From an uncultured Bacteroidota bacterium (GTDB lineage Bacteria > Bacteroidota > Bacteroidia > UKL13-3): a stretch of DNA of 64,000 nt. The notes beneath the pieces are model-generated. The model did not search any database, was not told where the DNA came from, and worked only from the letters and a program-made list of their open reading frames with translations. The position numbers were made by a program, and so were the translations under genes. The DNA lies in contig CAIVZR010000046.1 of NCBI GenBank assembly GCA_903910445.1, positions 1-64,000 on the forward strand, read 5' to 3'. Positions 7,509 through 15,875 of this stretch are shown here, one piece after another. Each line of letters starts with the position of its first letter. Within the stretch, counting starts at the first letter, position 1.

Positions 7509-7640
7509 AACTGCAGAGTAACCCATCAAAATTATTAATCTAACTGCAAAGTAGTTTAACCGGACTAACTTCAGAACTGCAAATTAGTTCAACATGACAA
7601 ACTTCAGAACTGCAACGCAGTTCAATAATAATAGCCATAG
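7509..7640. repeat. Four degenerate 33-bp tandem repeats
   Basis: Units begin at 7509, 7542, 7575 and 7608, exactly 33 bp apart. Each opens with AACTGC and contains part or all of an AACTGC...GCAGTT-like palindrome. Units 2 and 3 both end in ACTTCAG. The last unit carries the perfect hairpin GAACTGCAACGCAGTTC (7607-7623) and runs into the composite element at 7607-7691. Confidence 0.7.
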
Positions 7641-7691
7641 GTGAAACCTATGGTAAATGAATTCGTTTAAGTCAGAACCCCAACGGGGTTC
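7607..7691 (+). repeat. Composite hairpin element, left arm of inverted pair
   Basis: Three perfect short palindromes stand in a row: GAACTGC/GCAGTTC (7607-7623), CCATAGGT/ACCTATGG (7635-7653) and GAACCCC/GGGGTTC (7675-7691). Each has a 3-nt loop. The same three modules recur inverted at 7826-7908. The element lies in the 0.5-kb gene-free stretch between the oxygenase and the next gene. Confidence 0.85.
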
Positions 7692-7825
7692 AACATTTCT
7701 AATCATATTTAAAAAGGTAGTTAAGTTAATTGAATTTAAAACATAAATCTTTAATGCTTTTATGTTGGCAACTTTGAATTATCGAATGAACACGAAACTA
7801 TTTTAACGAGAAATCTCTAATTGTT

Positions 7826-7908
7826 CAACCCCGTTGGGGTTGTGAATACAAATCATATCTCAACCATAGGTTTCACCTATGGCTATTATTATTCAACTAC
7901 TTTGTAGT
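7826..7908 (-). repeat. Composite hairpin element, right arm of inverted pair
   Basis: This is an inverted copy of 7607-7691. It contains CAACCCC/GGGGTTG (7826-7842), CCATAGGT/ACCTATGG (7864-7882) and AACTAC/GTAGTT (7894-7908). Two of the three stems differ from the left arm by paired, structure-preserving changes. The central spacer (7692-7825) is AT-rich and shows nothing recognisable. Confidence 0.85.
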
Positions 7909-7986
7909 TGGGAAATATTGCTGTCTTGCACATAAATTTCCTAAATCCTCAAGCAACGCAAAACGATTTTCATTCGATATAGTGGT

Positions 7987-15269: not shown

Positions 15270-15332
15270 TTGCCGCCGTTGTTGCGTGTTGTGCGGTTGC
15301 AATTGCGGCTGCTCACCAACAACTGGGCGTAA
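15270..15332 (+). repeat. 63-nt intergenic repeat, copy 1
   Basis: It matches 15690-15752 at 62 of 63 positions in the same orientation, exactly 420 bp apart. It can fold through GTTGTTG...CAACAAC, extended by GTG/CAC across a one-base bulge. No coding sense is seen. Confidence 0.9.
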
Positions 15333-15420: not shown

Positions 15421-15476
15421 TTGGCCGTTGGTGAGGCATGCGCTATACCCAACACGCAACACCAACTGCGGCGTTT
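15421..15476 (-). repeat. Diverged inverted relative of the 63-nt repeat
   Basis: On the minus strand it shares TGTTGCGTGTTG and the TCACCAAC block with the 63-nt repeats, but the middle differs. It has its own stem, GTTGGTG (15427-15433) with CACCAAC (15460-15466). Confidence 0.6.
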
Positions 15477-15548: not shown

Positions 15549-15625
15549 TCAAACGTTCCTAAGGAACGTCAATACAGGGGACTTTCTCTGCTACCCACCA
15601 AATGTCCCTAGGGGGACATAATACA
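15549..15625 (+). repeat. Second composite hairpin element, left arm
   Basis: It contains the hairpin ACGTTCCTAAGGAACGT (15553-15569), a spacer of about 21 nt, then CTACCCACCAAATGTCCC with a second palindrome TGTCCC/GGGACA and the tail ATAATACA. The whole 77-nt unit recurs inverted at 15798-15875. Confidence 0.88.
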
Positions 15626-15689
15626 GCGGTAAATTATATTAAATAAAGGTGTTTTTCTGTGCTCTCCCCGCTTCACTCTAGCTCTGTTT

Positions 15690-15752
15690 TTGCCGCCGTT
15701 GTTGCGTGTTGTGCGGTTGCATTTGCGGCTGCTCACCAACAACTGGGCGTAA
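15690..15752 (+). repeat. 63-nt intergenic repeat, copy 2
   Basis: It differs from copy 1 (15270-15332) at a single base (15722 T versus 15302 A). It lies inside the inverted pair formed by 15549-15625 and 15798-15875. Confidence 0.9.
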
Positions 15753-15797
15753 TTACAAGTTGCCCTAAAATGCAAAAGGTGCACCGATATAGGCTAT

Positions 15798-15875
15798 TGT
15801 ATTATGTCCCCTAGGGACATTTGGTGGGTAGAAAATCGATTCCCCCCACCCTGACCTTCCGTAGGAAGGTTTGAA
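15798..15875 (-). repeat. Second composite hairpin element, right arm
   Basis: Inverted copy of 15549-15625. It contains TGTCCCCTAGGGACA (15806-15820), the TTGGTGGGTAG block and the hairpin ACCTTCCGTAGGAAGGT (15854-15870). Its outer stem carries a G-C to C-G pair swap relative to the left arm. Confidence 0.88.

Follow-up and report, generated by a model that had tools for sequence, protein, structure and literature searches.

The inverted pair of hairpin units at positions 15549 to 15874 of the window, the whole stretch of 64,000 nucleotides that was analysed, very probably represents a REP/BIME-like (REPIN-like) non-autonomous single-strand mobile repeat, here called family B, which is served by a domesticated, RAYT-like TnpA of the IS200/IS605 type. 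The kind of system is a known one, here in a phylum-wide variant, and the repeat class of B is widespread and apparently undescribed. The unit of about 77 nt consists of hairpin 1, a spacer of about 21 nt, an invariant CTACCCACC, hairpin 2 and AATACA (Table 1), and the first-pass annotation, which had described a 77-nt two-hairpin unit with an inverted copy, was correct in coordinates and anatomy. Folding of the two window copies as single-stranded DNA gave z values of -3.5 and -5.8. For the copy at 15798-15874 a third helix, formed by a G-run of the spacer with CCCACC, was also predicted; the G-run is missing from some B copies. A chance origin of the hairpin pairs is excluded, since the window contains 11 GC-rich hairpins (stem of at least 7, loop of 3-4) with four pairs 15-40 nt apart, whereas 40 dinucleotide shuffles contained 2.1 hairpins on average and never a spaced pair. 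A third repeat family, GCCGTTGGTGAGGC...ACCAACTGCGGCG with a variant TTGCCGCCGTTGTTGCGTG...CAACAACTGGGCGTAA, is interleaved with B in the window (15270-15332, 15422-15473 and 15690-15752). Its last copy sits between both B units, and relatives of this repeat flank a subclass 2.6 tnpA (L036) on contig C92.

Table 1. Positions of the family A and family B features in the window.
Feature	Position	Strand	Remarks
Family A inverted pair (the 7.6-kb pair, named by the first-pass annotation)	7603..7914	.	47 genome matches; flanks subclass 1.2 tnpA L035, contig C18
Family B unit, copy 1: hairpin 1, spacer, CTACC tag, hairpin 2, AATACA tail	15549..15630	+	aligns with 41 other full copies
Hairpin 1 of copy 1: ACGTTCC TAA GGAACGT	15553..15569	+	
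Spacer of copy 1, 21 nt	15570..15590	+	
Near-invariant tag CTACCCACCAA	15591..15601	+	reverse complement includes GGTAG; 6 nt from CTACC end to hairpin 2
Hairpin 2 of copy 1: ATGTCCC TAGG GGGACAT	15602..15619	+	
AATACA tail, final strongly conserved block	15620..15625	+	candidate cleavage site
172-nt interval separating both B tails	15626..15797	.	contains other-family repeat 15690-15752
Family B unit, copy 2, inverted, tail-to-tail with copy 1	15798..15874	-	

A whole-genome search revealed 59 matches to family B in its own 3.43-Mb genome (G000); 26 were found in the sibling species G003 and none in 56 other relatives (three further members of the genus and 53 more distant ones). The excess of paired palindromes over shuffled sequence, on which the first-pass annotation had beforehand staked its reading, is present, both in the window and in the genome-wide matches of B and of the 7.6-kb family. 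An alignment of 42 B copies contains 33 invariant columns, with the loops, the tag and the AATACA tail nearly invariant. The two stems covary, with 20 doubly changed cells against 3.1 in shuffles (0 of 500 shuffles as high), and covariation is stronger in hairpin 2, where three positions alternate UA/CG/AU, CG/UA and CG/UA. The exchange of ACGTTCC/GGAACGT for ACCTTCC/GGAAGGT between the window copies, reported earlier as a compensatory swap, is real but occurs in just one of 40 distinct copies. In one subtype of hairpin 1 an A.C mismatch is constant (the position is unpaired in 18 of the 40 distinct copies), which is reminiscent of the REP stems with bulges in E. coli. Close neighbours are inverted in 15 of 17 cases, head-to-head copies lie mostly 42-53 nt apart, and several arrays are located at contig ends. 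A short repeated module, GTGTGAGAGCGGAG..AATACAAG, likewise ended by AATACA, lies beside several B copies (L050, 16200-16250 and 16480-16520). At seven loci (L038, L044, L046, L047, L049, L051 and L058) B, L031-type, L033-type and L036-type repeats share intergenic regions, as if these were common landing sites.

The Pfam search of the genome detected seven Y1_Tnp (PF01797) genes, each a distinct single copy bordered by a distinct palindromic repeat family of its own. HuH, WQ and Y---Q--HH motifs were present in all of ten aligned proteins, which match Pfam Y1_Tnp and whose relatives of solved structure in the PDB are IS200/IS605 transposases, including the TnpA of ISHp608. Five of the seven genome proteins bear the signature of TnpA_Y1 subclass 1.2, as assigned by motif and not by the HMM of the class's authors; they share with it DH[IV]H, WQ and YIxNQxxHH, a length of about 150 aa, low copy number and occurrence in Bacteroidetes. 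Quentin et al. 2018 (PMC6006769) described subclass 1.2 from Cyanobacteria and Bacteroidetes as low-copy and without REPs; their automatic search demanded that GT[AG]G stand at the foot of the hairpin. This published absence of nearby REP-like repeats is not upheld here, where repeats surround these genes. The other two proteins, L036 and L037, have motifs (NHuH, YIH[NQ]NP) that agree with subclass 2.6, a Bacteroidetes subclass with atypical structures; each has its own repeats, and families A and B flank neither gene. A decayed tnpA relative with three in-frame stops (L076, G004:C6) is the sole Y1_Tnp match of that member of the genus.

A REPtron-like arrangement, that is, a single-copy Y1 gene with the same repeat on its flanks, is present on C18, where family A surrounds its gene, and likewise around L031 to L034 with their families. 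The whole-genome Pfam search found no tnpA flanked by true B copies in G000 or in G003, which is 89% complete; only related repeats flank such genes, at L031, L032, L074 and L075. The repeats of L031 (C11) and L032 (C43) follow the B plan of hairpin, spacer, TTTTCTACC[CA]AC, hairpin and GAATACAAG, and L031-type repeats are found within B-containing arrays. The nearest repeats to B are those flanking L074 and L075 in two sibling species, which have CAAACGTTCC..GGAACG, CTACCCACC and AATACA in common with B and show no wide dispersal within their own genomes. Repeats of L032 and L034 were likewise not found at a distance from their own gene. In the protein tree L031, L032, L074, L075, L073 and L077 are united in one clade (97/82), the family A gene falling in another, and B matches the repeat plan around this clade of three TnpA lineages. 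As had been proposed earlier, A and B are families of unrelated sequence with a common architecture. They probably share one mechanism class; A flanks its own TnpA, and B has the plan of sister-lineage repeats of the same subclass. The further proposal that this mechanism acts on shape and spacing and not on sequence did not hold, given the nearly invariant loops, tag and tail and the separate family of each TnpA lineage.

The tnpA belonging to B has presumably been lost, is unassembled, or has been replaced in trans by L031; an assembly gap hiding it is plausible, if unproven, because several B arrays end contigs. Tentatively, B might have been spread by a since-lost TnpA similar to L074/L075 and now be copied passively through recombination within arrays, a variant of the preferred explanation that would fit the missing cognate gene in G000 and G003 and the blocks shared with the L074/L075 repeats. 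The contig-end arrays and the incompleteness of G003 count against it, as does a difference in occupancy at C90:16400-16625, where this genome carries a B pair and the sibling a different repeat family, which suggests repeat turnover. The exact ends of B are unreadable at C90 because the sibling carries the other family there, and a clean empty site was obtained neither at C90 nor at the window locus. At the latter, G001, G002 and G004 align through an aconitase gene at 78% and then show no repeat or matching downstream flank, and G003 gave no match to the aconitase gene.

The preferred explanation, a repeat served by a domesticated TnpA, can be formulated as a series of steps in which cleavage, cut site, mobility and the identity of the TnpA serving B are what we infer. 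Both hairpins would fold when the unit becomes single-stranded, for example on the lagging-strand template. An HUH-tyrosine transposase, domesticated and of the TnpA type known from IS200/IS605 (subclass 1.2), would then recognise stem, loop and CTACC tag, cut beside the unit, with AATACA as the candidate site, and rejoin the unit elsewhere; this would leave dispersed, intergenic and mostly inverted copies. By analogy with the TnpA_REP of E. coli and Marinomonas and with IS608 (PMC8266576), the protein is predicted to bind the folded single strand and to cut next to it, and the tag to play a guide-like role. Because the tag stands at a distance from the foot of the hairpin, the recognition mode is expected to differ from that of GTAG-REPs.

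The transposase genes themselves do not behave as mobile, since their surroundings match in the two species at orthologous loci (L031/L073, L032/L077 and L034/L080); neighbouring genes include uvrB, an aldehyde dehydrogenase and an aminotransferase. At one such locus, L073 (G003:C1) has four downstream tandem units where L031 (G000:C11) has two, a copy-number change of a unit of about 127 nt. Ordinary mobile insertion sequences of the IS200/IS605 group, intact or decayed, whose left and right ends would be represented by the hairpins, are an improbable source of the units. The proteins are indeed IS200-type TnpA, with hairpins bordering their genes, and the likeness to IS608 and ISDra2 extends to the protein family and, putatively, to hairpin recognition. 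Unlike in those systems, however, no mobile IS is present here: tnpA is single-copy, divergent and at loci common to the sibling species, no near-identical copies with the same two ends were seen, the flanking units are mutually inverted and far more numerous than the genes, and TnpB was absent among the nine tnpA neighbours tested. Very improbable is the reading of B as a structured RNA or terminator/attenuator repeat acting chiefly at the RNA level: its stems are stable and covarying and all copies are intergenic (0 of 43 parsed copies inside ORFs), but no U-tract follows the hairpins, convergent genes are not preferred (10 tandem, 4 divergent and 3 convergent sites), the associated partner is a DNA transposase, and small-RNA signs are absent, an Rfam scan of the window yielding one tRNA only. 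The repeats may have a secondary effect on mRNA.

The arrangement recurs beyond this genome. In the closest 80 of 580 relatives, nearly all of them Bacteroidota, the motif Y---Q--HH was present in 74. Hairpin density was 2.29/kb in the first 200 bp next to the gene and had fallen to about 0.25/kb more than 600 bp away, and the tnpA flanks contained 119 hairpins versus 3-9 in shuffles. Of the 249 near hairpins, 97 (in 47 loci) had CTACC no more than 20 nt away on their 5' side, as against one of 143 distant hairpins; the gap between CTACC and hairpin measured exactly 6-7 nt in 83 of the 97 cases, and where another hairpin closely precedes the tagged one, it ends 29-39 nt ahead (the spacing peak). 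Tag and hairpins accompany the gene in 47 of the 80 relatives, the other 33 being without a CTACC tag by the criteria used. Units from six surveyed loci, searched in their own genomes, matched 35 times in F. anhuiense and 25 times in F. cutihirudinis, with 3-11 matches in the others; in F. anhuiense the close neighbours among the matches listed were all on opposite strands. AATACA was considered as a universal 3' motif and rejected: it occurs in families B, L031, L032, L033 and L074 and is not phylum-wide, because most Flavobacterium units do not carry it. Horizontal transfer or mis-binning would account for L104, a gene of subclass 1.2 that is accompanied by typical tagged hairpins and whose contig is binned as Methylococcaceae (Pseudomonadota). 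On balance, it appears plausible that subclass 1.2 TnpAs run a separately domesticated, phylum-wide REP system with a unit of two hairpins about 29-39 nt apart, a guide-like CTACC tag 6-7 nt from the second hairpin, a recognition mode other than that of GTAG-REPs and several coexisting families per genome.

Like REP/BIME elements with their RAYTs (the E. coli REPtron) and Pseudomonas REPINs, the repeats are short covarying intergenic palindromes with perfect and mismatched stem subtypes, they occur as inverted doublets and arrays, and single-copy Y1 genes lie among their own repeat family. Contrary to REP/RAYT systems, the units have two hairpins, CTACC/GGTAG stands 6-7 nt from the hairpin foot instead of GT[AG]G at the 5' foot, and the transposase motif is Y---Q--HH in place of the Y---NP of class 2. 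GTAG- and CGTC-tagged repeats share short-loop palindromes and head-to-head and tail-to-tail dimers with B (PMC3733652) and differ from it in a single hairpin with a terminal tag, a distinction drawn from their published description; Bacteroidetes yielded CGTC and not GTAG repeats (Di Nocera 2013, PMC3733652). In the open-licence literature we found no repeats reported for subclass 1.2, and an earlier description elsewhere is possible.

Candidate DNA substrates that follow a defined recognition grammar are now available for the low-copy subclass 1.2 transposases, which are common in Bacteroidota and have been thought partnerless, so that the activity of these enzymes becomes directly testable in vitro. 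Many unannotated intergenic hairpins of Flavobacterium and its relatives are thereby accounted for. The system also provides a second case for the question of why bacteria retain single-copy transposases that serve repeats and not themselves.
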